From Branchiostoma floridae (lineage: Eukaryota; Chordata; Leptocardii; Amphioxiformes; Branchiostomatidae), in the NCBI RefSeq assembly GCF_000003815.2, contig NC_049997.1, positions 9,009,812-9,073,811 of the forward strand: a stretch of 64,000 nt of DNA. The letters run 5' to 3'. Position 1 is the first letter of the stretch. Every line of letters starts with the position of its first letter. Under the pieces are notes generated by a model. The model was not told the origin of the DNA and did not search any database. It saw nothing but the letters and a program-made list of their open reading frames with translations. Made by a program: the position numbers and the translations under genes. This document shows, piece by piece, positions 16,701 through 58,826 of the stretch.

Positions 16701-17438
16701 CGAGCTCTGGAGGCGCTACAGGCGCTTTTGAAGGAATACAAGCTGAATATCACTATGACGTACTCTCGGAGTAATGTTCCAGTGGTGTTCACAAAGTAAG
16801 GGTGGTATTTTTTTTCATTCCATTTCAGGGAAAGATATCACCTAGTAATGATAGTATGCATTATAATGTACTCCTGGGTAAAACAGGCGTAAGCTATCTA
16901 CATCAAATCAAATCAATGACACGATTAATGAGTAGCTATGGGCACGGTAGAGTAGTAAAACAATTTAGTTTTATCATACATTTGTATATAAAGTCTATTT
17001 TCTTACGTAAGAAATCACCACTCAAAAAGTGTAACATGCATAAGTTAGCTACATTGAAAAAAATTGCTTTTCAAGAAAATGTTTGACAAATCAGTCTTTT
17101 TCTGTCCTTTACTTGAATGAAAAAGTCATATTTCAAATTTACTTTTCTCTTGTTGTCCCAGGCCACTACGTGACACTTTTATTCCTGGCTTGAAGTCTCC
17201 AACATCCGGGCTAATCGCCTACATCCTGGCAACTAGATTCTGTGACGTCATCACCCTGTACGGTTTCTACCCGTTCGACACGGATTCGCGCAACAGGAAG
17301 CTGTTTTATCACTACTATGATAACATTACGGTTGCAAAGAAACGCAGAAGTCGCCATAACTTTGGCATTGAGCATGACTTCTTTAGATTACTGCATCAGA
17401 ATGGACTCGTCCGACTGGTATCAGACATTTGTGAATGA
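13722..17438 (+). CDS. ST8Sia-like alpha-2,8-sialyltransferase, copy 1
   Basis: Seven in-phase exons: 13722-13831, 14152-14232, 15048-15116, 15333-15410, 15871-16114, 16536-16795, 17162-17438; 372 residues. Predicted type II Golgi enzyme that transfers sialic acid from CMP-sialate to glycans. An N-terminal signal anchor ([20 protein letters not shown]) is followed by a basic stem made of three short exons. Sialylmotif L is [20 protein letters not shown]..., ending DVG at an exon junction; motif S starts [20 protein letters not shown]; motif III is HYYD; motif VS is HNFGIE (H-x4-E); a terminal cysteine (DICE) is typical of ST8Sia. Stem exons 3 and 4 begin with near-identical coding (RAP(R/K)VTKHFQ) and look like a tandem exon duplication. 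Linkage preference (mono-, di- or polysialyl) cannot be read from sequence. Confidence 0.92.
14319..14478. mobile_element. 160-bp foldback MITE with 9-bp target duplication
   Basis: In intron 2 of the first ST8Sia-like gene. Left arm starts TAGTCTCCAAGCAGACCC and the right arm is its complement over about 50 bases, so almost the whole element is a hairpin. The nine bases CACGAATCC flank both sides (14310-14318 and 14479-14487). A 9-bp duplication fits Mutator-type elements; the family is inferred. Confidence 0.75.
14604..14652. repeat. Perfect 18-bp stem-loop
   Basis: ACCAAGGAGGTTAAAGAA at 14604-14621 is exactly complementary to 14635-14652 with a 13-base loop. It lies in an intron 125 bases after the foldback element. 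Could be the remnant of a very small inverted-repeat element; no protein role. Confidence 0.6.
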
Positions 17439-19225: not shown

Positions 19226-21138
19226 ATGGCGGCTTCTTCGCGGCAGCTGTCGTCTTTCTTCATCCTGCTCGTAGTTTTCACAACATTACTACTGATCTAC
19301 TGTCTCGTTCCGTATGGGGTATCGTCAAGGTAAGGGACAGAAAACTTAAAAATGGGCAGAATGCTGTGTTTATCATATGATTCACGCATGCCACCATAAA
19401 GCAACGGCTTAGATATGAGCTGTGAGATCTTACACTTTACATGTAGTATGAATGTATGATTCAGAAAATTGCGAAGGCGTACGTACGTTTCATAAGGTGT
19501 TTTTTTGCAAGCATACAACCATTGGCATTGAAAGGAAATCTTACGATTGCGTACTGAAAAAGATCATTGTTTGATTATGATTAATGATCAACAAGTTTCG
19601 ACAGTTTAGCAGTCAAAGCGCCCAAAAGAGAGTAATGGAGAATACAAGATGTGTATGATACAATCATTTGCATATCAAAGCATTGAGTGAGCGAAGCAAA
19701 ATTGTATACTGTTAGTACAACATTTCTTTTGTAATTACAAGTACCAGTGTGGTATTCTATTGAAATTGGTAACCCATAGTAATTTTTTTAAGTTTCAGGT
19801 TACCGTCACTTAAACAGAGAATCCAGGCGAGAAAGATCTCCTCTGTGGAAGACGTGAAAGATACTACAGCTAGGTAATCAATATTCATTGAATCGAGGAA
19901 CTCAACGTAACATTAAAGTAGTTGATAGACTTGTATTCCAATGCCTGCTACGAAGAGTTCGATCCCAACAAACCTAACTCTACGTGTATCTTTTATCAAC
20001 GTCTTACTTTAGAAATCTTCCTATTGTGTATATCACTACTATGATTATTATCATTATTCCATCATATATTTAATTGCGATTAGTCACTTGCCGTGTCTTT
20101 GCAAATAAATCATTATCATTGTTATTATATAATTTACCGTCCCTGCGATAGACACGTAAGATTTAGAAAAATAATTTTCTATTTCTTTTGCTTGTTGATA
20201 TTTTCATTCGATTCATAACATTTTAGGGTTTTGAAAGTAGAGAGTCGACCTCAATCAAGAAAGCTGGCGTCAAAGCCCAACGAAAAGGCCAACCGCATAA
20301 GGTAAGTACACCTTCAATTGTTAGGTTATCTTATTGTACGACGTGATACTTTTGATATTAAAAAACAAAGACAAAACAACACCCACAAAGAAGATCTAAA
20401 GGAAAGTTCCTGGGACTTTTTCGATCGTATATAAATTATGTTATGAGGCAAATAGCAAAGTATATTCTGTCAGCAACAAACTACATGTACTAGGAACTCT
20501 TTTTCTTCTTTCAGGCTTTTGACCTTCAAGTATTTTAGGACGTTCGAAAACTTTGCGTATTTTTCGGAATTCGCCCAAAACCGTTTGAAGTGCAAAAGAG
20601 GGAAACGCTGTATGACAGCAACACCCGTCCGCCATTACCACACATGCGCAATCGTGGGAAACGGCGGGATTCTCCTGGACAGCAGTTGTGGGAACGAGAT
20701 CGACAATCACAATTACGTCATCAGAATCAACATGGCGCCCATCAAAGGTTATGAAAAGGTGAACATTTCTCAAATTTCCGATGTGGCAACAACATTACTT
20801 GAGATTTCGCCTCAAAATAGAACTTTTGGCTTAAAAGTGATTCTGTTATTCCGAACGTTTTTCAACAGCTCGAGGTATTTTGACTTTACTGTGGTGAGAT
20901 ACATTCTGTGAGTTGACTATATTCAGATGTTTCAGGGGAATGGCTACCAAAGAAGCAGCCGTCAGAGATCCCGGCTGAAACCTCTGCTGGGGGATTAGAT
21001 TCACTAGTTAACCAATTTGTCGTCTTGGATTTCTTTGCAGTTTTCTGATTTTTTCACCATATTTTGTGGAAATTGTATAGTTTTTTTTCATATTAAAGCC
21101 CTCGCCACCAATGGACGACCCCACATGTGGATCATAGG

Positions 21139-21209
<71 letters not shown>

Positions 21210-22459
21210 TTTGTAATGCTTATTATTCAATAAGCAGATTCATGGCAATAACTGCACATGGAAGTCGAAATGCATCGTTTGTAATGGTCAGAAAGGCTCC
21301 TTACTTGTATTTGTTGAGTATGATTTAGGCTATGGTAAAATGTCCAGATGGGGTCTTTACCTTTTACATATTTCAGGCAATCTCGCTGTGCATGCTTAGT
21401 CAAAACCATGAACATGCTTATTCCATTCTCCGCACAGGACGTTGGAAGCAAATCGAACATGACGTTCGTCAACCTACAGAAGACCCTGGAGCTACGGAAA
21501 GACCTGATGTCCAGAAGAAAGAGGAAGGGGGTACTCAAAAACTTGGCTCCTCTAAACGGGAGCGTCATCAGCTACGTCAAACCAAACACCGCTTCCGTTA
21601 CACGGGCTCTGGAGGCGCTCAGTTCCGTGCTGAAGAAAAATAACCTTGACGTCACCATCACGTATTCATTACGTAATGTACCGGTAGTGATGACCAGGTA
21701 CGCATAAGCAGACCTTTGACAAAAACGTATTGACAACATATAATTGATATTAATTTAACGTCAAGAAAGAATTGCGAAGTATCAGATATGATACACAAAA
21801 CAGATACTAAGTTTGACAAAATTGACAGCTAGTATGCAGGGTGATTATTAAATGAGATATTTAATGTTATCCATGATGAAATAACGTTCTGTCAATAAAT
21901 TGATTATTGAACAAAAGATTCATCAGCATAATGCGATTTAAAACTTGTGGTTTTCAACGTTTTTAGAATCAGAATAATTTAGATAGTATTCTCTCAAACT
22001 GTGGCACCCGCTCAACGAAAACACAACCGCCATTATTACAATTTCAGCTTCGATATACATGGATATCAGGTGCAAAACAAATATAAACTGACCACGTTTG
22101 TCAAAACTCCACTATAAGAATAAAAACCCATTCTTAAACTCTATCATCTAGTTCACGGAGGTTTGTTTTCTTTAACCTCTTGTTCTAGGATGCTTAGGTC
22201 AACCCTGATTTCCGAGATGAAGTCTCCAACATCCGGTCTCATCGCCTACATCCTGGGAACGACGTTCTGTGACGTCATCACCCTATACGGTTTCTACCCG
22301 TTCACCACGGACATGCGCAACAGGACGCTGTTTTATCATTACTATGATCATATTCCCGTTAATCACAGAAATAGGCATAACTTTAATATTGAATATGACT
22401 TTCTCAGGTCTGAAAACCAGACTGCGTCGGTAAGATTGGTTACGGACATATGTACATGA
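19226..22459 (+). CDS. ST8Sia-like alpha-2,8-sialyltransferase, copy 2
   Basis: Six in-phase exons: 19226-19329, 19799-19873, 20227-20301, 20515-20758, 21438-21697, 22189-22459; 342 residues. Same enzyme class as the upstream copy. The N-terminal anchor is FFILLVVFTTLLLIYCLV, then a basic stem of two short exons. Motif L is [20 protein letters not shown], motif S begins [20 protein letters not shown], motif III is HYYD, motif VS is HNFNIE, and the C-terminus is DICT. The three catalytic-half exons are 244, 260 and 271 bases; the first two lengths match the upstream copy exactly, as do all intron phases, so the two arose by duplication. It has one stem exon fewer than copy 1. AATAAA at 22488-22493 is the likely polyadenylation signal. 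Intron 4 holds a long (AT)n tract. Confidence 0.92.
21139..21206. repeat. (AT)n microsatellite, about 68 bp
   Basis: Uninterrupted TA dinucleotides in intron 4 of the second ST8Sia-like gene. Likely variable in length. Confidence 0.95.
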
Positions 22460-23888: not shown

Positions 23889-25190
23889 TTAACAGTCACG
23901 AAACCACATTTCAAGGCCTCTTCTGGGAATCTCCTCCTGGACTATCATGAAGGTTTACCATTCTGGTAGGAATCTATAATAAATACAATAAATAAACTCG
24001 AAGATGTGTTTGAGTGATATGATAGTTTGAAATGCAGTTTATAATTCTCAAACTTACCGTCTATGATTTCACAGTTTTTACCGGAGAAGTCCCTGCGACA
24101 GTTACAGTAATATCCGTTCTGGCCGCTCTTAAAGCATGTAGCTCCCCATAGACATGGCTGACTGGCGCAGCCCAAATTCACCGCTTCAGAAAGAAAACAT
24201 GAATATTTTCATTGCTTACAATTTTTGAACACCAGGAAAACTGTAGTAGATGTTATGAGACGATCCATCATTTGGAATAACATTGGATCTCTGTGTTCAC
24301 CACCAAGGACAGGCATGCTGGCGCGCAATACTTGGGTCACATTTCCAAACGCACGAAGCAGTTTGCGGACACGAAAAGTATTCTTACGACTGATTTATTT
24401 CTCCTTTTCTCTGTGTTTTGTTGCCTTTGGTGTCATACTTTTCGTTCTGGCAAATTACCTGGCTTTCGCTTTAGCATAAGTAGGAATTGGCACCATACAT
24501 AGCTATTGTTTGTCTTGTCTGTACGTCTGTATGTATGTATATCTGTCTCTCTCTTCCCAACATGCGCATTGTAAGCTTATATGCGTATCAAAAGTTTCTA
24601 AAATTGTTCTGCGGTTTTCAGCAGAAATTAATTATAATATGTAACCCAATTATTGGTATAGTGAAGGAGTACTAAGTACTATAGTCTGTCTGGCTATTAA
24701 TATAACAAAAAATAGTATTATACGAAAAGGCGACGGTTTATGTATACCTGTTTCACAGTTTCGGCCGGTCCATCCTATCTTACACTCGCACGTATAACTG
24801 TTATGTCCGTCTCTGCAGCGTCCGCCATTTTGACAAGGGCTGGGCCAACACTCGTTAACAGCTATACAAAAAATAAGTAGAAAAACTGCATAAGTTCAAA
24901 AAGACAGAGAATTTACGAAAGAAATATCGAAGTGATAATGCAACTGAAGTTAATAAATTTAAAATGCAACAACGTCAACTATTCCTTAATATACATCACA
25001 AGGACATTCTTATGGAGTAGTAACGTACTAAGCATTCAAGAAAAATGAGCGTTGAAATTGCAAAATATTGACGTACATCGTTCACAATTCTTTCCTTCCC
25101 ACCCGGGTTGACACGAACACACGTAACCGTTGATCTTGTCCACGCAGTTTCCGCCATTTCGGCATGGATTTCTGTCACACTCGTTGATAT
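23889..25190 (-). CDS. Three EGF exons at the 3' side of the lectin-protease gene
   Basis: Three minus-strand EGF exons, all phase 1 in and out: 25190-25077 (INECDRNPCRNGGNC..., a calcium-binding-type start), 24861-24748 (VNECWPSPCQNGGRC...) and 24183-24058 (VNLGCASQPCLWGATC...). Each has six EGF cysteines and canonical splice sites. A donor after the last one implies another exon; 23941-23889 is a possible terminal exon (about 17 residues, then TAA) but is weakly supported. Exon phase would let them join directly to the C-type lectin exon ending at 26515. Whether they belong to the main transcript, an isoform or a decaying tail is unresolved, because the EGF exon between them lacks a usable phase-1 donor and a LINE tail lies in the gap. 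Confidence 0.6.
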
Positions 25191-25470: not shown

Positions 25471-26353
25471 GTATAAACAATCTAGTGAGTATCATAAAGC
25501 ATTATCTCGTTTTTGCAATGAAGCAGGGTGGGAGTTGAAAAGAGATGGTTTACATTTCACCTTAGAATGTATTAATGTGGGCTGCTACATTTGAATCTAG
25601 ATTTAAGTCTCGTTACAATGCTTTTGAATTATGCCATTACTATAGAGAAGCACCAAAATGACAAAACAATACGCAGGTAAGTTATCATGTTTATTTCATC
25701 GGTAAAATGCTACAAAATTCTTAAACAAAAATCATGTATTACAGAGGCACATAAAATGCAGTACGAGGTGGATTTCTGCACGGACCTCATTTAGTTAGTT
25801 ACATTTCTCTACCAGTTTTGTCTAATATGTGAGAAATTAAAAAGTTGACGTTCTTGATATATAAACCTTGACACAATGTGGTGATTAAGTATGGTGACGT
25901 GAGAGGTCATAATCAATAATCAATGATAGCGTAAGATTGATGTGTATAACCAGTTTATTGATGGAATATAAGTGAGATGGGTGTACAAAGTTGCATTTTC
26001 GTTTAGATATTAAGTAAAACGTCTGGAGGACCATTCAGGATGACGTAGGCGGAGAGAAATCGTCCGTATGTACTTCTTATTTATCGGTTTAACTGTTCAG
26101 CACGCTCAGCCAGGGATCCACTACTATGCTATGGCTATTTGGTTTAAGGGCTAGCTCTACTGACAAAGACAAAGTAATGTACCACACAGGTGAGTGATTT
26201 TTGTACAACAGCGTGTAACGGAGGCAGTAACGGATTAAATATCTGAGACGTTGCACCACGTGTCAACTTCGGGTGGTTAGGCTCAACTTAGCCAGCGTAG
26301 AGTTGGCTACCTAAAACTGTTCAGCCTGTTCTTATACAAAAACCGATTGAACA

Positions 26354-26481
26354 CTAAAAATACCACAAAAATTCACAGTTTGTTCCATCATATGCTTCTG
26401 TACACCAACACTCGTAGCCGTTGATTTTGTCCACGCAGTTACCGCCATTTTGACACGGATTGCTGTCGCACTCGTCGATAT
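26354..26481 (-). CDS. EGF exon running into an in-frame stop
   Basis: From an acceptor at 26482-26483 the frame reads a complete six-cysteine, calcium-binding-type EGF domain ([15 protein letters not shown]...) and then FLWYF and TAG at 26354. The lectin exon ends 33 bases upstream at a GT, so joining them would need a 33-nt intron. There is no phase-1 donor after the sixth cysteine. It may be an alternative terminal exon or a decaying copy of the EGF exon at 25190, which it closely resembles. Confidence 0.5.
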
Positions 26482-26506
26482 CTGAAACGGTAGAAAACCT
26501 TAAAGT

Positions 26507-29500
26507 TTACTGACCGCCGAGTATGCTGTATTCACACACGTAAAAAACAGTTTTGGAGCAGTCGTAGTCAGTCCACTTGTATCTAAGGTAAGGTCTCCAC
26601 CCAGCGCAGTCTTCACCATTGCCGTTGTCGTCAGGTTGTCCTCCGTACCAGTTGGACCAATCAGCGAGCGGCGTTCCGTCCTCCCATATCCAGGCTCCCT
26701 CCTGCACCTGGTCCGTCAGACCGAACCAGATTTGAGGGTTGTAGCTGCCCGAGCCGAACCTAGGATTTAAAACCTGGTTCACTACAAAGTCGTTGGTCGC
26801 CTTGTCCTTTACCAGAGCTAAACGGCCACCCGATGATTGACAGTCAAGCTTGGCTTCGTTGTATGACTTTCCTCCAGTTGACAAACTGAAGCATGTGTCT
26901 CTGAGCTGTTCATGACCATCGGGACAGCCTAACTTCTCAGGGCGGGATGCACGGACTTCACACACGTGAAAACCACTTTTGGAGCAGTCGTAGTCAGTCC
27001 ACTTGTATCTAAGGTAAGGTCTCCACCCAGCGCAGTCTTCACCATTGCCGTTGTCGTCCGGTTGTCCTCCGTACCAGTTGGACCAATCAGCAAGCGGCGT
27101 TCCGTCCTCCCACACCCAGGCTCCCTCCTGCACCTGGTCCGTCAGACCGAACCAAATTTGAGGGTTGTAGCTGCCTGAGCCGAACCTAGGCTTTAACAGT
27201 TGGTTCACCACGAAACTGTTCGTCTCTTCGACCTTTAAAAGAGCAAGTCGTCCGCCTGCTACTCCGCAGACGGACCTTGCGCCGTCGTAAGAGTTCACTT
27301 CGGTGGACAAACTGAAGCATCTGTCTTTGAACCGTTCATATCCATCAGGGCAGTATAGCTGTTCAGGACGGGCTGCAGACAGAACAACGGAAATTATTTG
27401 TCCATGATACCTTTCCAACTAGCCGCCTTTTTTCGCGAAACTTGCTTTGGCCCCAAACGGCCCACCGTACTGTCTAAGCTATCTGTAAACCCCGTATTCA
27501 GATTATGGAAACCCGCCGTTTCTTTGCTCAGTTATCCTCCTTGAAAGATTTTCACAAAACGCCCCTACAGTTACATAGCAATCTGCTAGGGGCCGAAACC
27601 AACATTTAAAAAAATCAAGACGATAGCGTGTCGAGGGCAAAAGATACAAAAAGGTGAAAGTCCTGCTGCATTACAAAGGTCAGCCACCTTGACCTTTGTA
27701 TGTGTTCACAGTACATAGTAGCCAAAGACCAAATATCACCACAATCCACCCTGAGCTATTTGCGGCTGCAGAAACGCGTACAAACCAAAAACTATATACC
27801 TATATTTTTGATAAAGGTCACAAGTAAATTCAAAGAATCTCACCTATCTGACAGTTCTCTCCGGTATATCCCGACGGACAGTCGCAGGAGTAACTGTTGC
27901 CTGTGTCCATACACTGCCCACCTTGCTGACAGGGGTTGCTGGCGCATGCGCTGATTGCTATAAGGGTGGTAAAGTTGTAGGTCTGACATTGACACTGACA
28001 AAATTTATTCTGTAGTTTTGACAGTCTTGATTACGATACAAACGAATTTAGGTTTGCTTGAATGAGTGAAGAAGCGTGAGTCGTTCGTAAATTGGCCTAT
28101 TCACTCCTGGTGTAAGTGGATCAATTAGATCTTTCAGGATATACAACTTATACTTTTCAGCATAAACCTGGTTTGTTAAGCCATTAGATGGTTTACTGTG
28201 GATTGGGTAGAAACACACAAACAAAGAAATCTATGTGAAACTTATTTGTGCAAAATTGCAGGTACCATTTTTGTAGCAACATTATGACAGTTAATCTCTG
28301 TTTAAACATGATGAAAATCCATACCTTGTTCGCAGTTGCGTCCCTCCCAGCCTTCCAGACACTCGCAGAAGTATCCCTGATGCCTGAGCACCAGCCACGA
28401 GGGGAGGTCATGTCCCTCTACACACCTGCCTCCGTTCCGACAGGGGGCGCTCGTGCACTCCTCAACCGCTGAAGGGGAAGTAGCAGAGATGATTTAAAGT
28501 TTGCTTTCCGTTTTTTTTCTGTATTACACAGTTGAGACTTTTAAGATTATAGTATGGCCACACTTGTCGACTCATGGATGTGCAAAATGAGAAATGTGGA
28601 AAGTTTTGTGCAACAACGTTCGATTCGAGCCGCCATGTCAGATGACATGCGTGACACCGATCATAGACGTTAGATTTGGCTAATTTTGATTACCAATAAT
28701 TCTAGCCATTAAGTATACTTTGCTGAAAAAATACCGTATACTCCTGCCATGTTTTGCAAAAAAAAAAGCACGTCTCATTTTCAGACGCTCATTATTAGCA
28801 TCATCGTTATGTATTATAACGCTTGCTCTGTCAAAACCTTTCCTGAATACTACTCGAGGTCTCCCTACCTACCCTGTTCACAGTGTGTCCCTTTTCTCCC
28901 AGCAGGACATTCGCACGTGTATCCAGCCTGTTGCCTGACACAGACGCCTCCATGCTGACAAGGGTTACTGGCGCAGCCGTCAATAACTTCTATAGGTGAT
29001 GTAAGAAACATTTTCTGAATCACGATAAATAAAGACAAGAAAGAAAATTGCCTTTACTGGTTGGTGACACCTGAAACTATTCACTTTCACTCTCATCTCG
29101 GGACTCACTATACGTATGTATAGAGTGCACGCAGAATCGATGTACTCGTAGAGCAGAATATCTTCCGTTCTTATCGACTGAAAGCACAACGAACAGTAAT
29201 TTAAGTGGTCTACATCAAATGACTTGTCGTGTAGACTGCAATCCGCAGGGTGCAATTCGGATTGGTATTGTCTCGCTGCACTTGGGACACCGGTGCGGCA
29301 CTATGGTTCGTTCACTTCGGGACTGTTGTTATTTTCGCCGATTTTTTATAATCAAGATTTTGCGTAGTACGTAAAAGAATGACTTAGAAGACAACACAAT
29401 ACACAAAACGTACGAAAATACGTTCTTTATCTCAGAGTGAAATTCGTTGTGTAATCTTTCAAACCCCACAGTGATGCACCGGCTACGTAAATACAGAGAG

Positions 29501-32500
29501 ATACCACCTTAATGTACCAGGAACGTACCCTGTTCCTCGGTTTGTTCTGTGATCCAGTCCCTGAACCTGTGCAGACGGGTGTAGACGCCATACTTCCCCC
29601 TCAGTGCGCAGCCGTCTCCCCAGCTCACCACGCCCAGCAGGTGCCATCTTTGGGAAAAAAGGACTGTCAATCAGTATAAGTTATCACACCTTAGCTTAGT
29701 TTAATAAATGCCTAGCAATAGATAAAAAGTGCAATGATGAAAAAGAAAAAAATAACGTCTCATAAACCATTCAAACCTTTTTTTTTACATTTTCATAAGT
29801 AATTATGCGATCATTGAATAAGAAAATGAGGTCCACCTACAGATGGGAATTCAAGATGATTGTGGCTAATACTTAAATCAATATGCTTAACGGTTGTCAT
29901 TGTTTGTTAACATTGTGAAACTGCACTGTGCTTTTGCTGATGAAAACGTATTTATTGCAACACATTTTTACAAGACATGGTAACGGCACACGCATCTTTT
30001 GCACCATTACTCGTTATGAAAGTGATATTCGGAAGCTGTCAAGAGGGTTTGGACATGCACTGATATATGGGAGTTTTTGTGTGTGTAGGAGGATTTTACT
30101 AAAACGTATTTCCGACCTCCCGTTGTCGAAAGCTGCAAACGGCCCTCCGCTGTCACCCTCACACGCGTCCTTCCCTCCCTCCCTCCGGCCGGCACAGAAC
30201 ATGTTCTGACTGATCTCCTGTGCGTACTGAGGATGGGAGTCCCGACACCGTCTCAGAGACACCACGGGTAGGCTTACCTGGAATATAGGAACATTTAGAC
30301 TCATGATGAACATGTTGATTTGCATTGTGTACAAGACCAAACTGACTGCTTGTTACATCGTCTTCTGAAACTGGAGACCATAGCGAAGCTAGCTCATCAA
30401 ATAAGAAATGTAATGTTAGAAGGGAATAGTTTGCTACGCCGTCTTCTAAATCTAAGAGCAGATGTGGGGTAAAAGATAGTCATGTTTTCTGAGTGACGGC
30501 AGGGTTTCTCTGACATTTCCTTTTCTCATAAAAGCAGAAAAAAAGACAACAGTTGCTTCAAAAGCTAGTAGTAATTGAAATTGAACGTAAATTATTTTGG
30601 AAAAATGGAAGCATAGGTTGGCCTACAAAAGAGTCAGATTTCACAAGAACTTACAAGTACTGTTTGAGCGTACATTTTCGACGCAAAGTTTGGGCCTTAT
30701 GATTTGACTTAATGCAATGTGAATTTTGAAAAGAATTGCTTTTGAGGGAGACTGCCAGTGACATTGTCTCCTTTGTGCAATATGAGGAATCATGACAACC
30801 TTCATTAGCTTCTCAGAAGTCCCTTCGCCCACCGCTTGGGCGCCCCACCCCGTCACGGTGCCGATGTTTCCCGGTCGGATCAGCCGTCGTGCCTCGGGAA
30901 TTTCCGGAAGGCAGATCGGCAGGATGTACTCGGTAAACGTCACTTCCGGTAGAGCCAGTTGGAGAAGTGCTACGTCAGACTCGTAGGTGTCTCCGTTGAA
31001 GTCAGGATGGACGATGATTCTTTCGACAATGTATGACCTGTGAGAATTGCATAATATACATAGTCACTGCGGTCAATATGATTATAAAGCAATCATAAAT
31101 TTCATGCTGTAGCTTTGGTCATTCTTGCTAAGAGAATTTTGTTATCATTGAAGAAAGAAGTCAACCTATGTGTGCGATAGCATGCTATACTTTAATCTTT
31201 TTTCTCACTTGCTACGCTTGCATAAGTTAAGGAATGCAGCACTTGCTACGATTATGCATGATTATCAAAACTATGTATTACTGAATAAACAGCTATTTCA
31301 ACAATTGTTAGTAATTTTACCGTTTGCAAACATTCATTGGGTACAGTGCGTGTACAAAATCGACCAAGTTCCCAGAGGTACACATGTGATTTTGAAATAC
31401 TTTGATCCTGATCGAAGTGCTTCATGGGAGCCCAAGGCCCCGTCTTGGAGGCGTCGCCAAAAGACTTTGCCAGCTCACCTCTCGTTCGCTTCCAGCACGC
31501 CCCGCACAGAGGTGTGTTTCCCGAGACGGACGATAAAGTCCTGCTCGGTCAGACCCAGTTCCCGGATGCAGTGAGCGGCAGTGATCACCCAACGCTTGTT
31601 GATAAGACTTCCCGAACAGAAAAATCTGAAAACAATGATTTAAACACTAAGCGACAAATACAGTCATCTGTAACTAAGTGACTGTCTGCCGTAGTTAAAC
31701 ATTGTAACCTTATAGAGCTTAAACTTTGTTTCAACCCCAAAAAGTATTTTGCTACCCTATTGCCAGTCTTTCTCGGGATTATAGGGGCGTGACGTCAGAA
31801 GTGACGAAAGGGTTATAACGTTCACCTTCTTTGGCTAATGTTGGGTGCATTATGGCTGGTTGATGACATTCAGTCATCCAGGATGTGTATAAGTTGCGAA
31901 ATATGTATTGCAAAGAATGGTGGGATGGTTGCATGATCCCTCTGGCCTTTTTTTCTGTCTCATAATACACTTTTGTTGGACATTTCTTTCTGTACTGGGT
32001 CACTTCACCATTGGCCCCCGGTAAAAAAGGCCCCAGAGAGCCTGCTATGGAGGCTACAGTTGTACCTGTTTCTAGTCGGTCTGATGTCCCACAGCATGGC
32101 CTGCCACGGGAAGGCGCCTGGTTCCACCTCCGTCCCGCCCACAATGAACCCGTCCGAACCCGTGGCATGGAACGGGCGCCCGCAAACTGACGAGATAAAG
32201 AGAAGCAAAAACTTTATTCGGATCGTAAAGGGTGCATTGCATTCGATAAAAATTCTTATCAAAAGAAATCATAGATATTTTGCTCTTGATAACTACCAAG
32301 GAAAAACATTACAGGCGCCAAGGAAAGGAAATCGTTTATCAGGTATACTTTATGACTTTATACTTATGATTTTACACTTGTGTTGAGCCCACAAAGATGG
32401 CGGACACAATAACACGTCATAATCACGTGACTACAAAGCAAGACGCAAAGTACGATGGGAATACCTCCATCAATATCAACATCAACAACCAGGGTAGTCT

Positions 32501-34785
32501 TGGCCTCTGTGGTATGACCGTCGCTGTCCCTGCTCGCCTTGCAGGTGTACCGGCCTGTGTCCGTCAGGGTTACGGAGGTCAGCACCAGGTCCCCCCGGTT
32601 CTGCAGGACGCGCTCCCCGTCGATGAACGAGCTCGGCGGGCGGCCATCTTTGTTCCACGTGATCCGGTCTGCGCCAATCGCGCTGCATCTGAACACGTGA
32701 CTCTCCCCGAACTGCACCGTAGCGTCGACTGGAGCCTCTAAGAACCTCATCTCTGTAAAAACACGAGAAGTTTTCTGCAGATTAGAAAGACAAAGTATTT
32801 GAAAAGGAACAAGAAGTATCTTTTCCCTATCAGTACGACATACAAGATTGTGCTGTACAATATTTGTCGTGAGAAGAATGGGATATTCAATTAAAAAAAA
32901 AAACCTTTCCGACTTCAAAGCGCTCAATTCCATCCACTAAAGGTTAGGGACATTGTACTGTGTAAGTATGCTGAACAATCTAGTTCTTAAAATCAATTTT
33001 AGACTATGATCAACAAGGCTACAAAAATGCTTATACGCATAGTTTACTCTTTCTATGATAATCGATACGTGTAAATAGTTCAAGTGAAGCATTATATTTC
33101 TTGATGAATGTGAACATACCAGAATGTATCGTTATCCAGGCATCAGCCGATATCCTTGTATTTCCCCTTTTCAGTTCACAGGTATACTTATCAGCATTGT
33201 CTCTGTTAGCAATGACCAGCAAGTCGTTGTTGAACAGGACGAATATCGTCCGAGTGAAGGGCGGGGTCAGCGCTTTCCCGCCTTTGTACCACGTGACGGA
33301 GATGTCGTTCTGCTCATGCGCGGCGCAGTGGAGGATGACGGTATCGCCCAACATGGCGGTTTGGTTCGACGGCCTCGTTCTGAATGATACTGTAGATGGA
33401 GGTTAGGAAGTTGCTTGAAATAAGTCTAATATATACGATTTGTATTCATACTACTGACGTCATACGTCAAACATCTGCAGGTAAAAGAACCAAACACACT
33501 TCTGAGTGAGGCCACGTTGTACTTCATGCTGCTATTAAACCATATCAAACCATACAGATGATGACTCAGTGATGATGCCTAATACAAAAAGAATGAGGCA
33601 TAGCCCCAAACCATTTTGCCTTGTCTTGTTCTGTGAACGAAGGCTTTACCTTCCTACTGACAATCTTTAATGGGAAAACAGATTCAGAAGGCTGTCAGCA
33701 GCAGTATTTCGTATCAATTTAAACCTACGACAATTGCGTAAAGTATAGCGCAGATATAACGTAATGGATACTGACATACAATTCAACTAAAAAACTAAAA
33801 CTAGTAAAGGCAGTTTCGTCTGCCATTCTAGTCAACTCGACGAGAAATAAATGATACACTATTATATATTGTAAACAGAAAAGTGAAAATGTCACCAGTA
33901 GCATCTCTTTTTCCTCGCCCGTGTCGAACTGCTCCGTACTGACGCACTTGGTCACTAGAAACAACAACAAAGCCCGGAAATTGGTGAATACGTTAAAAGT
34001 GAGCGAATGTCTCGTCATTGAATAGAAATATTGTCCCCTGATGTCAGTTTTACAGGAAAAGATATACAGTTTCAGTTCTTGGTAAACCTTTTTATTGCTC
34101 GATCAGAAACATCAATGCACCATGTCACAATACATGTATCTGTGTGCTTGGTTGTGACCTGTATTACAAATCATTTTAGGGCCATTTTGAGGCCACAGTT
34201 GTTCTTATAAAATGTGAACAACTCCCGCGGATAACTCCCCAAAATTCTCATTCAAATAAGAAAGAAAAAATCAGTTTGAGAATTTATTGAGTTCATAACC
34301 TTTATCATTGCAGAGGGTTCCTTCACTGACAAGAGTGGTGTTTCTCAGAAATGAACCGAACTTCGTGAGCCGTGTTGATGTGCCACTTGACAGACAGGCA
34401 AAGCCTTGAAAACGAGCACGACATTTCTTCATTGGCCACTCGCCATTTTTGGTCAAGACACGCAAACGCTAAGTCCACCTCCCGCTACCGAAGACGAAAG
34501 ACTTACATAGCTTAGCCTTTGGTATGAGGCATCAGTTTAAAATTTTCTTTGATAATACATATTTCAAAATTAAAAGCTCACATTGTCCAAAGCGTTTCTA
34601 AGATTATAAGGTAAATAACCCTACCGCTAGACCAGAAAAGTTAAACTAAATCAACCATTTTGAACAAAAGGCAAACTTGTGTCAATACCAATATCCCTGT
34701 GTCAGTAAGAAATCGATACATACCTGGGAAACCCGTATATAGAAGTCAGCTGGATGATACAAAGCAAGACAGTTGTCTTTGACAT
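26507..34785 (-). CDS. Secreted Ig-Ig-trypsin-EGF3-CTLD2 mosaic protein
   Basis: Thirteen in-phase exons on the minus strand: 34785-34724, 33954-33896, 33389-33120, 32752-32465, 32186-32066, 31625-31479, 31037-30800, 30277-30117, 29647-29529, 28989-28873, 28468-28325, 27957-27844, 27372-26507; 901 residues if the TAA at 26507-26509 is used. Order: signal peptide ([18 protein letters not shown]); two Ig domains (about 41-226; DNADKYTC and DTGRYTC mark their second cysteines); S1 protease (about 241-480) with H285 (TAAHC), D337 (SDVALLQL) and S438 (GDSGGP), and Asp six residues before the serine, implying cleavage after Lys/Arg; three EGF domains (489-613); two C-type lectin domains with QPD and WTD calcium-site motifs (galactose-type). 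A cysteine before IVGG and one in PICLP could tie the chains after activation. Residue before IVGG is Phe. No known protein with this order comes to mind. An upstream in-frame ATG at 34815 is possible. Confidence 0.88.
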
Positions 34786-34815
34786 CGGCGAAGTGAAGCG
34801 ATACCCTGGACTCAT

Positions 34816-36689: not shown

Positions 36690-37940
36690 GTTTCACAAGG
36701 TACAAAAACAACGTGTTATATACCGATTGTAATCTTCAAGTGTCAACAGATGTTATATAAAAATGGAAGACGCTAACATGACTCAACTCTCCGCATAAAA
36801 ATTTCCCAGATGAAATATCATCATGCACACCCTAGATGTTGCATCGACTAATGGTTGTAGGGGGTAGGTATACCTGTGCCATGTTCTGTACTCTGTTGCA
36901 GGTATTGTTAGTCAGACTGAAATCTAATCCAAGTTCATGTGACTCCCATTACGAGTAAACAATACATCTACCATGACCTACTGTACTGACATAACCTTTC
37001 AATGCCTGATTTGAAGCCAAAGCAGGTAAGAAATTTGCATATCGTCGTTGACAGGTGAAGATCAAGTGCTTCTCATGGCGGCACTAACACAACACCCTGT
37101 TCTGTTGTACTGTGTGAGGCACTCCCTCCTTCGTCAGTATTGTACAGCCGGGGAGACAGCTTTACAGGCAAACTAAACTCCAGGTAAAGTCAAGATCTTG
37201 CATTCAACAATTTTCTGATAGCTCTCCTATTGAACTGAAATCTTATATACGTTCACATGACTTACGTTAAGAGTTAACAATACTTTTACCGCGCCAAAAC
37301 AGGCAAAAGAGAAATTTGCTATCGGCGTTGACATAACTCGACAGGTGAAGAACAAGTACTTATCATGGCGGTACTAACACAACAGGCTGTTCTGTTGTGC
37401 TGTGTGAGGCACTCCTTCCTTCGTTCACACGGTACAAAAATAGCATGTTCTTCACAGAATTTAATCTTCAAGTGTAAAATGCTGTATAAAAGTGCAAAAA
37501 TTTCCCAGATGAAATATGACACTATATATGCACTCTTCAGAGATTGCATGATACTAAAGGGGGGAGGGATGGAAATAGGTACACCTGTTCGTGTACAATG
37601 TTCTGTATGTTGCAGGTATTTTGAGTCAACAGGGTAAAATCTAATAAACGTTCATGTCTTCCGCTACTTATATATAAGCGTAGACAATACATTTACCATG
37701 ACCTACTGACATAACCTTTCAATACCTGATTTTAAGCCAAAGCAGGTAAGAGAAAAATTTGCATATCGTCGTTGACATAACTCGACGGGTGAAGAACAAG
37801 TGCTTCTCATGGCGGCACTAACACAACACCCTGTTCTGTTGTACTGTGTGAGACACTCCTTCGTTCGTTAGTATTGTATAAACGGGGAAACAACTTCACA
37901 GGCAAACCAAACTCCAGGTAAAGTCAAGATTTTACATTGA
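36690..37940 (+). repeat. Locally duplicated intergenic units carrying a repeated mini-frame
   Basis: Three kinds of block recur in the same order. One block (ATTTCCCAGATGAAATAT with ATCTTCAAGTGT upstream) is at about 36730-36815 and 37460-37520. A second (CATGACCTACTG...GCCAAAGCAGGTAAG) is at 36970-37030 and 37695-37755. A third (CATCGTCGTTGAC-like, then ATGGCGG.ACTAACACAACA) is at 37030-37125, 37317-37425 and 37757-37860. Each third block starts a frame MA(A/V)LTQ followed by VLL.CVRHS, at 37075, 37365 and 37809; the second reaches 90 residues. Possible GTAAG donors follow two copies. No domain is recognised. Confidence 0.7.
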
Positions 37941-39829: not shown

Positions 39830-42800
39830 ATGGTCAACATAAAATTTTACGACAAGCACGTCTACGTGTACTTCTGTGTCATCTTAGCCCTAGGTTTTCT
39901 CACCTTTTTTCTCGTGCAATATCGTTCTTCTTCTTCTTCTTCAACACATCTTACAAGGAAGCTTTCTCGATGGCGGTCCGCCTCTCGTCTGTTTATAGAG
40001 ATTCGTAGCTCCACAACAAAGCCTATGACTGATCAAGAAAAATTGTTAGAAATTGCGAACATCCTAAACGTGCACGGAAACCTAGAGGAAGAAGTATATC
40101 ACAGAATGCTCATAGAAATCGTCATTTTAGCTCAGAACCAGAGAAAACAGCGAGTGTCAGCTAAGGACACCATAGAGGAAATTCACAACATGATTTTGCA
40201 TCACACTAAGAACTCTGAACTGATGGAAAGACTTCTTGAAGATATGGATGTCTTGGACAACCTTCTACCGAAGAAACTGGACAGAGAATTAAGTGTGTAC
40301 CCTTTCAAGAAGGATGCTGCCTTCACACCATCGGTAAGTTAAACTCACTAAACGAAGCATTTTTTGTCATATGTAGAAGTCAGAAAAGAATTTGATCATC
40401 CGAATTCATTCTCAAGAACAATGAAAATTTTCCTCATTTTTCTTTTCTGATTGTTACCGTTTGGGTAGATTCCAAAATTACTTCAAAATGGCAATGGGTT
40501 TCTAACTCACAACCTTGTGTTATAAAGTTGGACCGCATACTGTATACGTTACAGCGCACTGTGCATGCACTGTATCGCGTCAATGACTACAGTAGTACAG
40601 TTCAGCAGTGTCCTGTCTAATGCTGAGACAGGTTTCACTGCCAACACTTTGGTAATAAAAGTACTTACAACTTAAATTTGCACATGTTTGCCAGAAATGT
40701 CCGAACAGCTTTAAGAGAAGATCAGAGGTATCCAGGTGGTTTCGGGACAGGTACGTAGCGGACATCAAGGTACTGTTGGACATCAGTGACGTATCAGACG
40801 GAGGATTTCTGGACCTGAAGTTTTTTAAACTTCCCTTCGGCTACAAGACTGAGAGTGAGGAAAGTGAGTAGGTGTACATAACAATTCTGACTGTCAACTT
40901 CTCGCACTGCCTAACATTATTTTTTTAGACCTGCTGTTTTAAGAGCGCCACACTGCTTTATTCGCAGACATTGCAGCTGACATATCCGTTTGGAAATACA
41001 GATACACATATACATACTGTTGGACAGACAAATACTTGTATAGGCACACACACACACACAAACACAAACACAAACTCACCAAGGGTGTTAGAGAGCTTTA
41101 AGTTGTTAACGTGATAAATGACACAATCTGCGTTCAGAGTATCATTGTCGTTTATGCGACAGTGTCATTTGGCGACATTACTGCATTATGATGATGTGAT
41201 ATTTCTTATAGTTGTACAGAACATATTGAGGCATTTGGAAAATGTGGAACTCTACCGCGGAGGGAGACAACCTTGCATTAGGTGTGCTGTGGTCGGCTGC
41301 GGAGGGATACTGAACGGTTCGAGGAAAGGAGATGAAATCAACGCACACGATTACGTTTTTCGGTACGAAGACAACTAAATTTTATGTGTTGAGTACAGCA
41401 TACACGTGTCGTGTATGATTAGTATCCAGAATATCATCACGATTATGTTTCCAATTGTAAACAAACTTACGCTTCAAATGCTTGCAGCAAGACCACTCCT
41501 TTTTAAGTTTTATGCTCCTCAGACTAATTGGTTGCTTGAAAATACTATAAGGAATAATTCTGTGTATAATTGTCACCGAATTGTATATTCATGTCTACTG
41601 ACTTTTGATGTCTAATGTTTATTGTTTGATTTTGGTTTCGTATTGTAATTCTATTATCATTTCAGGTTTGGGAGGACAACTTGTAAAGGTGTTGATACAC
41701 CTGTTTTGTCCTCCCTTCCACTTGTTTTTGCATGTGGTAAATTCAAATAAAGAAATAAAGAAATAAAGAATACTATGGCATTAACATTACATACATGTAG
41801 TATTACTTTCCTCACAGACTGAACCATGCAGAGATCGGACCTCGGTACGCACCTGACGTCGGAAACAAAACCAGTTTCTACATCTTTTTCCCGGAGTCTG
41901 CGGACAACAGGCTTCTACTGGATCAGGTAAGAGTTTGATACCGCAAGAGGTTTTTTTTTTCTAATTTTTCGCCCCAATGGTCCTTCAATAGTCAATCGAA
42001 AACACTTTGGTTGGTTGTAATAGACTACTTCGTTTACCCATGTTGTGGCTTCTACGCATTAGCCATATGCATTGGCCGGGTCACATAACATTGTTGCATG
42101 GGGCTAGTCCACGTGTGCTGTATGTTCTTTTCCCAAAGATTTAAGTGCTTGCACGGCATAAGAACAAACAGTATATGCCATTTTAAAGTCTTAGGTATGT
42201 CTCAACCCTTTGAAATGCAAGGCGAACACTCTAATACGTAATATGTCACCTATTCCCTTTATCATCCACAGGATGTGACGTATCTGTACGTGCCGTTTAA
42301 GACTTACGATCTACAATACATCAACGAGAAACTGCAGTACGATACGATCCCAGACGTATGTGCCAATGGAAAATGCAAGTACGTATTCACAGATTTTCTT
42401 TCTGAAAATACGCAATGGGATCATTTTTCGTGTACATTATACAGTCTTTGCTTGCAAGTTCATCTGTGTTGGTAGTAATAATTCCGAAGCAAAGTTTGAA
42501 CAATGATTTCCGACACAGCAACTTGGATTTACCGAAATTTTCTACTGCTCAACTCCAGTCTTTATCTATGAATGCGCAACCCATCGCTTCAGTGACGTCA
42601 CGTTGTGCAGACAGAACACCTCACTCAGAAAGCAGAAAGCCTATGTCGCCACCCGTCTCAGTCTCATAATCAAATGTCTACTTTTCAACCCACAAACAAC
42701 AGGAAACTGTGCAATCCGAAGAACGTGACGTCACACAACCTTCGCGTCGTCCACCCAGACTTCGTCCGCTACGTCACTCGGTGACCAATGAAGTTGTAGA

Positions 42801-43350
42801 AAGCCTATATCACCACCCGTCTCGGTCTCATGATCAATTCTTTTTACTTCCAACCCTCCTACAGGAAACTACGAAAGCCCAAGAACGTGACGTCACACAA
42901 CCTTCGCATCGTCCACTCAGACTTCGTCTGCTACGTCACTCGGTGGCCAATGAAGTTGTAGAAAGCCTATATCACCACCCGTCTCGGTCTCATGATCAAT
43001 TCTTTTTACTTCCAACCTCCTACAGGAAACTGCGCAATCCGAAGAACGTCACATCACACAACCTTCGCATCGTCCACCCAGACTTCGTCCGCTACGTCTT
43101 CGCCAACTACCTGAACGCCACCTCGAGTCGCCCCACCACCGGCGCGCTCACGGTCTTCCTCGCCATGCACCTGTGCGATGACGTCACCCTGTACGGGTTC
43201 GGCTACGACAAGAGGTTCTCCCTACACTACTACGACAAGACGTTCGTGAACTCCACGCAGTGGAAGACCGGTTCTCACGATGTAGATAATGAGAGGGTAC
43301 TGTGGAGCAGGCTACATCAAGAAAACGTCGTCACGTGGTACCAGAGATAG
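39830..43350 (+). CDS. ST6GalNAc-like alpha-2,6-sialyltransferase
   Basis: Six in-phase exons: 39830-40333, 40695-40863, 41212-41362, 41818-41926, 42272-42378, 43026-43350; 454 residues. Predicted type II Golgi enzyme adding sialic acid in alpha-2,6 linkage to GalNAc on O-glycans. The signal anchor ([19 protein letters not shown], about residues 12-30) is followed by a long helical stem. Motif L is [14 protein letters not shown]...NAHDYVFR and continues LNHAEIG...DVGNKTSFY. Motif S lies in [20 protein letters not shown] with LYGFG; motif III is HYYD; motif VS is HDVDNE; the end [12 protein letters not shown] matches ST6GALNAC1/2 rather than ST8Sia. Two oddities: Cys replaces the usual Asn in VVGNGG, and the last exon's acceptor and first 75 or so bases occur three times in tandem. 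The third acceptor (43025) gives an intact frame. A poly(A) signal may lie near 43769. Confidence 0.93.
41400..41775 (+). mobile_element. LINE 3' end with AAATAAAG tail
   Basis: Lies in intron 3 of the ST6GalNAc-like gene, ending 43 bases before the next exon. A perfect hairpin (GGGAGGACAA at 41670-41679 with TTGTCCTCCC at 41706-41715) precedes a tandem AAATAAAG tail (about 41745-41770), the style of 3' end found in CR1/L2-type LINEs. The 5' limit is uncertain and no coding remnant was confirmed. Confidence 0.65.
42640..43100 (+). repeat. Tandem 162-bp repeat spanning an intron-exon junction
   Basis: Three copies of a unit made of intron 3' end, acceptor CAG and the start of the last ST6GalNAc-like exon. 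Exon-like copies begin at 42703, 42865 and 43026 (spacing 162 and 161). The first two keep GAAACT...AAGAACGTGACGTCACAC and the exon start through GCTACGTCACTCGG, then return to intron sequence (GCCTATATCACCACCCG). Entering at the first acceptor in the gene's frame gives a stop after 25 to 30 codons. Confidence 0.85.
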
Positions 43351-43574: not shown

Positions 43575-43785
43575 ATAGATTAACCATGCATTGTATGCTC
43601 CATTTGTCCGTACATTTACTGGCAGCTACGTTGAGACTCAAGAAGTTTAGTCTACGTACACTGTAGACGCGTTCAGATACCATATTATTATATGGCTACA
43701 ACTACTATTGTACTTCTGTTTTATCACCCCGACCTGTACTTAGATTGGAAGAGCATAAACGTTCCATAAAGATCTAACATTTTTA
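43575..43785 (+). repeat. 3'UTR-like segment, duplicated at 47070-47280
   Basis: Follows the ST6GalNAc-like stop codon. Shares ACCATGCATTGTA / ACCATGTATTGTA, GATACCATATTATT, and TATCACCCCGACCTGTAC / TATCATCACGACCTGTAC in the same order with 47070-47280, including an ATAAAG-type polyadenylation signal at each end. Most simply the two are duplicate 3' ends of one gene. Confidence 0.6.
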
Positions 43786-43799
43786 TTAAAGTGACAGGA

Positions 43800-45477
43800 G
43801 TGGACCTGCATGTTCCTAGTAAGTGTAACTTATTGAATAAGTTGAAATCTGAGAAAGTGTCTGGGAGTAGCCAAATATCAGAGGAGGACTGGTTACAGCA
43901 CTTTAGTAACCTGGACAAACATTTATCAAATGGTTTCTGTAACATAGACGCTTCAACCACTGAAACCGTAGACACTTCATCCCCTTCAAATACAATCCCA
44001 ATGGAGAGCTCCATATTAGACTCCCTTATAACAGAGAAAGAATTGGACACCGCTATATCAAATCTAAAAAACAAAAAATCTAGCAGTGGCGACATGATTA
44101 ATAATGAAATGTTTAAATGTGGAAAACATATCCTAAAGAAACCACTTCTACATCTTTTCAATTCCTGTCTACAAAATAGTTACTTCCCTAAAGAATGGTC
44201 ACTAAGTCATATTGTACCCATTCATAAATCCGGGGACACTTCTGTCCCAGACAACTATCGAGGAATATCCATTATTAGTTGTCTGGGAAAACTATTCTCA
44301 TCTATTCTGAATACCCGTCTAGTTAATTATGCAGAACATTACAGCCTTTTCAAACCACAACAGGCCGGTTTTAGAAAGAACTTTAGAACAACTGACAACC
44401 TTTTCGTATTATCAACCTTAGTTAGCAAATATCTGAGCAAAAACGCACGAATTTATGCCTGTTTTGTAGATTTTAGCAAGGCGTTTGACTCGGTTTGGAG
44501 AGAAGGCCTTCTACTGAAATTAAACAAACTTGGATTAGGAGGGAAATTTCTACTCACTATAAAAGACATGTATTCCAAAACAAGAAATTGTGTTAAAACT
44601 AGCCACGGTCTTACCGAAACTTTTGTAACTAACTGTGGGGTTCGACAAGGCTGTAATCTTAGTCCAACTTTGTTTAATTTATTCATAAGTGATTTACCAG
44701 ATGTGTTTAATGACCATTCCTGTAACCCTCCTATATTGCACGATAAGAAAGTGTCATGTTTATTATATGCAGATGACCTGGTACTTTTGTCTGAATCTCA
44801 ACAGGGTCTGCAAACTTCTCTAAGTAGATTAGAAAATTATTGTGAATCATGGAAGTTGAATGTTAATCTAAAGAAAACTAAAGTCATTGTATTTACGAAA
44901 GGTGGCCGCCTACCAAAAGACTGCCTTTTTCTATATAAAAGACATGTAGTAGAAATTGTTACAAATTATTGCTACCTGGGCATTGTTGTAAACTCAGCTG
45001 GCACGTTCAAGGCAAATAACAAATATCTGCACAGCAAAGGCCTGAGAGCCCTCTATGGAATCAACCAATCCCTTGGCAAAGCCGACGCTTCTATATCCGT
45101 AAGAAGCAAGCTATTTGACACATGCGTGAAACCTATTCTGTTGTATGGTTCGGAAATATGGGGTTCATTCAAAACTCCAAAATCATCACCAATTGAAGCT
45201 ATCCATTTAAAATTTTGTAAACAATCATTGAATGTCCCCAGATCCGCATGTAACCTGGCCGTAATGGCAGAACTTGGAAGACACCCTCTTAAACTAGAAG
45301 CATCCCTTAACGCCATCAAACAGTATATTAGAGTACGCCAGAACGTGCCAGCTGATAGTCTATCAGCAGACGCTCTTTTGTGTCAACGTAAACTGGACAC
45401 ATTAGGCGCTAAATGCTGGGCTTCTGGAGTCCGCAAGACGCTAGAGGAATGTGGTTTTGGCTATGTCTGGCACTCTC
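43800..45477 (+). mobile_element. LINE reverse transcriptase, 5'-truncated and cut by a gap
   Basis: One long frame (43791 into the gap, about 560 residues) with all core reverse transcriptase motifs: VPIHKSGDTSVPDNYRGIS, FVDFSKAFDSVW (motif A), GVRQGCNLSPTLFNLF and the catalytic LLYADDLVLLS (motif C), then a thumb-like region (NYCYLGIVVNSAG). The style resembles CR1/L2/Rex-type non-LTR elements. The endonuclease domain is absent, so the copy is 5'-truncated. It has no internal stop and may be recent. The C-terminus is lost in the N run. It lies between two similar 3'UTR-like segments (43575 and 47070). Confidence 0.88.
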
Positions 45478-45577
45478 NNNNNNNNNNNNNNNNNNNNNNN
45501 NNNNNNNNNNNNNNNNNNNNNNNNNNNNNNNNNNNNNNNNNNNNNNNNNNNNNNNNNNNNNNNNNNNNNNNNNNNNN
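45478..45577. other. Assembly gap, 100 N
   Basis: Exactly 100 ambiguous bases, the usual placeholder for a gap of unknown size. Sequence on either side is repetitive: LINE on the left, tandem repeat on the right. Confidence 0.98.
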
Positions 45578-46200
45578 ATATCTAGAGCACCCCTTTACCA
45601 AATTTTGGGCTCATTTGGTTGTAAAACGAGGGAACAGGAGCCAAAAATGTCCAATTTTTGTCTAAATATGGCCATAAAAATGCAATATTGAGCATTATGT
45701 TGTACTGTATGGAAAAACTGTTATTGAATTCATGCGCACAAAATTGAAGGGCACTTGTATACCAAATTTCAGGTCATTCGGTTGTAAAACGAGGGTACAG
45801 GAGGCAAAAATGTGCTTTTTTTGTCAAAAAATGGCCAAAAATCGCAAAATTAAGCATTTTGTTGTACCGTATACCAAAACTGCTATTAAATCTGGGTGGG
45901 CATATGATCAGGGCACCTCTGTACCAAATTTCATGTCATTCGGCTGTAATACCAGGGTACAGGAGCCCAAAATATACATAAAAATTGACAAAAACCTCAA
46001 TAAAATCATTTCAAAGGCAGATATGAAAAAAATGAAAAAAACACCTAAGGGTATTGGCTTACTCTACCTTTGTGCCAAATTTCAAGTCAATCGGTTAAAA
46101 AACGGCGGAGTTGATTCGATTTGAAGATTTGGCAGGAGAAAGAAAGAAAGAAAGAAGAAAGAAACATTACGAATACAATATATTTCACCATACCTATGGT
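45578..46200 (+). repeat. Tandem 160-bp repeat and microsatellite tail after the gap
   Basis: Three to four diverged copies of a unit with the phrase TACCAAATTTCAGGTCATTC then GGTTGTAAAACGAGGGTACA, near 45595, 45760 and 45925, with a shorter copy near 46072. The array ends in (GAAA)n at about 46138-46165 and a palindrome CCATACCTATGGTATGG near 46190. It may be the 3' region of the interrupted LINE or a separate element; the gap prevents a decision. Confidence 0.6.

Positions 46201-58791: not shown

Positions 58792-58826
<35 letters not shown>

Follow-up and report, generated by a model that had tools for sequence, protein, structure and literature searches.

Does a chordate genome encode a protein that joins a sugar-binding sensor and an effector protease in one polypeptide chain? 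Vertebrates divide these tasks between a sugar sensor (collectin, ficolin) and a protease (MASP), two separate proteins that need to be assembled. The question is raised by a gene on the minus strand of a 64,000-nucleotide stretch of the lancelet Branchiostoma floridae (NCBI RefSeq assembly GCF_000003815.2, contig NC_049997.1, positions 9,009,812 to 9,073,811), which we call the window and within which all positions are numbered. The gene, an animal-type gene with introns, encodes in order a signal peptide, two Ig domains, an S1 serine protease, three EGF domains and two C-type lectin domains (CTLDs). We read it, tentatively and at slightly less than an even chance, as a single gene encoding a secreted zymogen of a mosaic S1 protease, which would be tethered to a glycan surface by its lectins, switched on by a chymotrypsin-like cut and directed at Arg/Lys bonds nearby.

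Gene model and domain architecture

Thirteen minus-strand exons between 34815 and 26507 join to 2736 nt, giving a single frame of 911 residues and a stop, with no internal stops, GT-AG at 12/12 junctions and a TAA ending at 26507. All thirteen phase-consistent exons proposed in the first-pass annotation could thus be located and joined in one frame, exon 2 tentatively, and its boundaries at 26507, 27372, 29529 and 34724 agree with the joined exons. The gene extent it gave, 34785 to 26507, does hold the frame, but 34785 is the second in-frame Met and the start may be the first, at 34815; at the other end the gene probably continues beyond 26507 to 23945, as described below. The exons of the 911-residue form, with the evidence for each, are:

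34724..34815, minus strand: exon 1, start codon (34815) and signal peptide, phase 2; by frame, with donor GTATGT the best-scoring of 16
33896..33954, minus strand: exon 2 (tentative), linker with a dibasic GRGKR stretch; joins in frame, with a weak donor (CTG/GTGACA) and a weak acceptor
33120..33389, minus strand: exon 3, Ig domain 1 (Ig_2/I-set), phase 1-1; Ig_2 2.4e-10
32465..32752, minus strand: exon 4, Ig domain 2 (I-set), phase 1-1; I-set 4.4e-12
32066..32186, minus strand: exon 5, linker Cys (CGRPF, C238) and activation site DGF/IVGG (P1 Phe250); by frame and alignment to thrombin DGRIVEG
31479..31625, minus strand: exon 6, protease with catalytic His (TAAHC, H295); by frame and Pfam
30800..31037, minus strand: exon 7, protease with catalytic Asp (DVALL, D347) and C368, weak donor GTTGTC; by frame and splice scoring
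30117..30277, minus strand: exon 8, protease with pocket D442 (position 189) and catalytic Ser (GDSGGP, S448, codon AGC); by frame
29529..29647, minus strand: exon 9, protease C-terminus with SWGDGC and GKYG (Y478 at position 225); by frame and structure alignment
28873..28989, minus strand: exon 10, EGF 1; EGF 4.6e-10
28325..28468, minus strand: exon 11, EGF 2; EGF 2e-07
27844..27957, minus strand: exon 12, EGF 3; EGF 3.4e-11
26507..27372, minus strand: exon 13, two tandem CTLDs and TAA; Lectin_C 8.2e-18 and 1.2e-21

The hydrophobic core of the signal peptide lies at residue 16 (hydropathy 2.42 across 11 residues). A Pfam scan of the 1036-residue extended model described below matches Trypsin at 2.2e-60 over the complete profile (1-220 of 220), EGF at 3.1e-40 (six stretches), Lectin_C at 2e-38 (two) and I-set at 1.1e-20 (two); scanned alone, both Ig domains, both CTLDs and EGF 1-3 each pass the Pfam cut-off. 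The domain content first proposed, two Ig domains, a full S1 protease with its His, Asp and Ser, three EGF domains and two CTLDs, is therefore borne out, as is the position of the protease in mid-chain, with more than 400 residues of binding modules behind it in the joined frame. GC content in the extended model is 55% in exons (62% at third positions) and 37% in introns. A 13-exon frame with such domains and such a contrast in GC is far beyond chance.

Protease and lectin parts, probably in a single gene

The protease and the EGF-lectin parts very probably form a single gene, which we infer to be transcribed as one unit. The donor of exon 9 (29529) is among the best 2.2% of GTs and its phase matches that of the EGF exon. 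An unlikely alternative is that the model merges two or more genes, one for Ig-Ig-protease with its end near 29509 and one for EGF-lectin(-EGF) with its start further downstream. An in-frame stop at 29509, within 20 bases of the exon 9 donor, makes a protease-only ending possible on paper, and an EGF-lectin-EGF protein would by itself be an ordinary secreted lectin. The junctions between modules, all in phase 1, do not discriminate between one gene and two and are no proof of linkage, since such junctions are usual for shuffled modules. What argues for the single gene, besides the phase-matching donor, is the lack of the expected boundary signals. No AATAAA or ATTAAA is found in 29705-28009, a range covering the 539-nt intron between the protease and EGF exons, although with 16 such hexamers in the 12.5 kb examined this gap is mild evidence only. 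Nor does 29528-28990 contain a single signal-peptide exon with a fitting donor, the one hydrophobic ATG frame (29096) having no phase-1 donor that passes the filter; this filter demands one exon with a phase-1 donor, so that the gene's own exon 1, in phase 2, would fail it and a two-exon start would be missed, which counts against the single-gene reading. The frame is continuous, nothing between the protease and EGF exons clearly points to a second gene, and the claim of one secreted chain is supported.

The 3' end of the gene

The last bases of the lectin exon, GCG/GTCAGTAA, contain a GTCAGT donor that overlaps the stop and is among the best 4.3% of GTs. If this donor is used the lectin exon ends at 26515 and forms a cassette of 858 nt in phase 1-1, the phase also of the Ig and EGF exons. 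Three further EGF exons and a tail exon, at 25190-23945, then extend the open frame, which brings the model to 17 exons and 1036 residues. These exons and two other features of the region are:

25077..25190, minus strand: EGF 4 exon of the extended model, phase 1-1; by frame and Pfam
24748..24861, minus strand: EGF 5 exon of the extended model, phase 1-1; by frame and Pfam
24058..24183, minus strand: EGF-like 6 exon of the extended model, phase 1-1; by frame, and the sixth EGF stretch of the whole-model Pfam scan
23945..23973, minus strand: tail exon of the extended model, DSYQNGKPS and TGA; by frame, with ATTAAA (23875) and AATAAA (23680) downstream
25954..25959, minus strand: AATAAA, possible end of a short transcript stopping at 26507; by hexamer scan
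26354..26481, minus strand: relic EGF exon; EGF 1.2e-06, acceptor among the best 0.6% of AGs

Poly(A) hexamers are available to both ends, at 25959, 25695 and 25379 after the TAA and at 23875 and 23680 after the TGA. A separate start for the downstream EGF exons was not found between 26506 and 25191, where neither of two hydrophobic ATG frames has a fitting phase-1 donor. We think that either both the 911- and the 1036-residue forms are made, or the long form only.

The relic EGF exon lies in a 121-nt repeat, 26492-26372 being a 79% copy of 25201-25081. It starts 33 nt after the exon 13 donor, and no phase-1 donor is seen at its end. As a spliced exon it was rejected for the 33-nt gap, which is below minimal intron length and too near the donor for splicing. 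This repeat, its first copy (26372-26492) lacking a visible phase-1 donor, the 33-nt gap and the stop overlapping the lectin-exon donor are what one might expect of a decaying or misassembled copy of the gene, with a degenerating 3' half and a truncated product only. We consider this quite improbable, given that 17/17 exons of the extended model are open, that the Pfam domains are whole and that no assembly gap falls inside the gene, the sole run of Ns in the window being at 45478-45577.

Protease domain and activation site

The S1 domain is complete, with the triad H295, D347 and S448, and the pocket residue D442 (position 189) predicts specificity for Arg/Lys. Its eight cysteines agree in number and place with those expected for C42-58, C168-182, C191-220 and C1-C122; following the chymotrypsinogen family pattern, C238 would presumably pair with C368 as the chain-linking C1-C122 bond. 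Of the 479 distinct solved-structure sequences matched, each of the 60 best listed is a thrombin, prothrombin or prethrombin (best E 2.3e-58). With Ig-Ig-S1-EGF3 as one query no solved structure matched at a cut-off of 1e-60, a result due to the strictness of that cut-off.

The activation site reads DGF/IVGG compared with DGR/IVEG in thrombin, placing Phe250 at P1 and making the bond to be cut Phe-Ile and not Arg-Ile. Since a Phe at P1 should be unfit for a trypsin-type cut, the protease is unlikely to activate itself in the ordinary way, and the simplest reading is an activator of the chymotrypsin type. The Phe-Ile site thus gives a clear prediction of the class of enzyme that switches the protease on.

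Lectin domains

Both CTLDs keep six cysteines, QPD, DQVQEG and ED, and the structure of Mincle aligns to them with DQVVEG, EPN and ED at the motif positions. The first-pass description of the pair as QPD-type holds for the QPD itself, present in both, but the usual WND reads WTD in each. Calcium and sugar binding by the CTLDs are predicted from these motifs and are likely.

When the two copies are aligned over 418 bases they differ at 74, and the differences are unevenly spread: 51 fall in the first 150 bases, 13 of 246 in bases 150-396, which encode the sugar-binding half, and 10 in the last 22 bases. These limits were picked by eye; a test that chooses its own break placed it at 162, and 0 of 2000 shuffles reached the same value. 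Of the changed codons, 5 are silent and 6 non-silent in the conserved stretch, while the first 150 bases have 17 silent and 22 non-silent ones. So few silent changes favour gene conversion, or else a partial duplication of recent date, over selection alone, and the sharp-edged, near-identical second halves (26531-26830 and 26957-27256, minus strand) are likely a gene-conversion tract. A scan of viral contigs with the lectin exon gave three pattern matches and no relatives.

Comparison with known mosaic proteases

The order Ig-Ig-S1-EGF-CTLD is a new domain order of familiar parts and not a new kind of system, its unusual part being the placement of lectins behind the protease. Lancelets are rich in shuffled domain combinations, which makes a new order less surprising. 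We found no description of an Ig-Ig-protease-EGF-lectin protein in the literature titles and abstract openings retrieved, a set that leaves subscription papers mostly outside, so we make no claim that it is unpublished. The closest known system by mechanism is horseshoe-crab factor C, and by part the Ig2-protease end of protostome MASP-like proteins. To call the gene an undescribed system, as first proposed, was too strong: lectin and protease are combined in factor C, and an Ig pair precedes S1 in arthropod C1s-like and some protostome MASP-like proteases (PMC10672452, PMC10090249, PMC11312191).

Factor C is an S1 zymogen sensitive to lipopolysaccharide (LPS) whose single chain carries both a lectin-like domain and a protease, in the layout Cys-rich region, EGF, CCPs, LCCL, CTLD, more CCPs and, at the C-terminus, S1 (PMC10672452, PMC10090249). 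On activation it becomes two disulfide-linked chains (PMC10672452), and the title of a reference in the same paper has it activated by chymotrypsin but not trypsin. With LPS, factor C activates C3 on Gram-negative bacteria and is reported to be necessary and sufficient for C3b deposition there (PMC3351276). Compared by domain types and layout only, factor C and the lancelet protein both have EGF, CTLD and S1 in one chain; the lancelet protein has no CCP (Sushi) or LCCL and two Ig domains in front, and carries EGF domains and two CTLDs behind a protease that in factor C is C-terminal. The activation bond of factor C is Phe-Ile.

An Ig pair stands before S1 in arthropod C1s-like proteases (CUB-EGF-CUB-IG2-S1) and in some protostome MASP-like proteases, where it takes the place of the CCPs; one of these, a MASP of molluscs that lacks CCPs, reportedly induces cleavage of C3 (PMC11312191). 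The lancelet protein likewise has an Ig pair ahead of S1 but no CUB-EGF-CUB, and its EGF domains follow the protease, whereas theirs precede it and the protease comes last. No CUB or CCP was detected in the 1036-residue model at E values up to 0.01, nor did either appear in the 10 longest of the 65 minus-strand frames (at least 30 residues) between 34600 and 40500, and the idea of a further CUB part upstream was dropped.

Membership of the MASP/C1r/C1s family was considered and rejected, as the protein has no CUB, no CCP, a mid-chain protease and a Phe-Ile activation bond where MASPs, C1r and C1s have Arg-Ile. It shares with MASP-1/2/3, C1r and C1s the nature of a mosaic S1 zymogen. The catalytic serine codon is AGC, and lamprey MASP-A and MASP-B have AGY. 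AGY-type MASPs have a single-exon protease, in contrast to the five protease exons found here, and MASPs meet their lectins on a separate protein, in contrast to the covalently attached lectins of this chain. Prothrombin/thrombin S1 is the best solved-structure match and has GKYG at position 225 in common with it, but no Gla or kringle domains accompany the lancelet protease and Phe replaces Arg at the activation site. The CTLDs of PLA2-receptor/mannose-receptor, Mincle and collectins rank with the best of the 102 distinct structures matched and have the six cysteines, QPD and ED in common with the lancelet pair, which differs in WTD for WND and in being a one-exon tandem with a homogenised second half.

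Putative mechanism and function

In the mechanism we propose, the lectin domains would keep the zymogen attached to a surface coated with glycans, and their presence in two copies would allow a bivalent grip. The N-terminal Ig pair may bind a partner or brace the protease, at the place where MASP and MASP-like proteins have CCP or Ig pairs. A chymotrypsin-like enzyme would then cut after Phe250, the new N-terminus Ile251 would insert, and the trypsin-type pocket (Asp442) could cleave Arg/Lys bonds in substrates nearby. Given the expected Cys238-Cys368 pairing and an EGF-lectin tail continuous with the catalytic domain, the cut should free neither the Ig chain nor the lectins, and the active enzyme would remain on the surface it had found. 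As a first guess, the substrate may be a C3-like or clotting-like protein. One molecule may in this way both find sugar-coated surfaces and act on them.

Several points weigh against this lectin-tethered zymogen. The gene model itself is a prediction from genomic DNA. Its splice sites were ranked against all GTs or AGs of the strand by a matrix trained on the sites of the model itself, the site being scored left out of the training each time. On this ranking 14/16 donors were among the best 11% of GTs; the donors of exon 2 and exon 7 are weak, with 38% and 33% of all GTs scoring as high, as are the acceptors of exon 2 (29% of all AGs), exon 8 (22%), exon 5 (15%) and x15 (14%). Exons 5, 7 and 8 are fixed by protease homology, but exon 2 is not. 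An alternative acceptor just before 33379 would join exon 1 to the first Ig domain in frame, so that exon 2 could be skipped and the exons number either 12 or 13; leaving out exon 2 but keeping the exon 3 acceptor (33389) breaks the frame, and a model of that kind was rejected. The Phe at P1 is unusual but not unique. With the protease plus EGF 1 as query, a scan of genome contigs produced 114 relatives, of which the best 80, all on bacterial records, were used for position counts; among the 70 with Ile/Val at position 16 (10/80 have none aligned, and P1 is unreadable in 9/80), 37 carry Arg/Lys at P1 and 4 carry Phe, although bacterial proteins are a poor control. Tyr at position 225, a mark of sodium-regulated clotting and complement enzymes, says little, because 28/80 of the same homologues also have Tyr (34/80 have Pro). 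Having WTD where WND is usual, the lectins could be left with a weaker sugar-binding calcium site. Finally, mosaic extracellular proteases act also in matrix, fertilisation and mucus.

This last point leads to the rival we take most seriously, though we think it rather unlikely: that the same single-chain mosaic protease is not immune but serves in the extracellular matrix, egg envelope or mucus, anchored through its lectins and EGF domains. Modules of the Ig, EGF and CTLD types are equally common in matrix and immune proteins, and the gene sits within an array of GT29 sialyltransferase gene pieces (see below) with no other immune-type gene recognised among the frames scanned. On the other side, the nearest design of known function, that of factor C, is immune (PMC3351276). 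An immune function for the tethered zymogen and the lectin-pathway role first proposed for it are putative.

How the zymogen would fire admits a further version, overlapping with the lectin-tethered reading, in which ligand packs the molecules together and they cut one another at Phe-Ile, with no upstream enzyme, in the manner of factor C. The Phe at P1 is in keeping with it, but the pocket Asp (D442) favours Arg/Lys, and what the comparison shows in common with factor C is the S1, EGF and CTLD domain types; we regard this version as improbable. A bolder proposal, doubtful but less so, is that this chordate protein is a whole lectin pathway by itself: sensor and effector protease in one chain that stays attached, with chymotrypsin-type firing as in factor C, reached independently by the joining of an Ig2-protease to an EGF-lectin, and with lectin halves kept alike by gene conversion. 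If true, a chordate with sensor and protease in one chain would be a simple, testable case of recognition coupled to proteolysis without assembly of a complex, and a parallel to factor C, the basis of endotoxin testing.

Genomic surroundings

Pieces of GT29 sialyltransferase genes form five plus-strand clusters around the protease gene:

15854-17411, plus strand: GT29 cluster
20456-22363, plus strand: GT29 cluster
41283-43347, plus strand: GT29 cluster
52643-53469, plus strand: GT29 cluster
57542-59564, plus strand: GT29 cluster

The clusters are defined by matches to query frames, three of which have a Pfam GT29 match. They are reminiscent of the tandem ST8Sia EX genes of lancelets: such genes are tandemly duplicated in Branchiostoma floridae and, within the study concerned, were found only in sea urchin and lancelet (PMC2564942). 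Inside an open GT29 frame at 42634-43098 (plus strand) a 162-bp unit is repeated 2.9 times with an 88% match, so that a 54-residue piece recurs in frame. A long reverse-transcriptase frame (RVT_1, 4.2e-37), probably of the long interspersed nuclear element (LINE) type, occupies 43770-45662 (plus strand) and crosses the N gap at 45478-45577. On the minus strand, the adjoining frames 37322-37651 and 37706-37867 have a peptide in common, ECLTQ(H/Y)NRT(A/G)CCVS(T/A)AM, perhaps through local DNA duplication.

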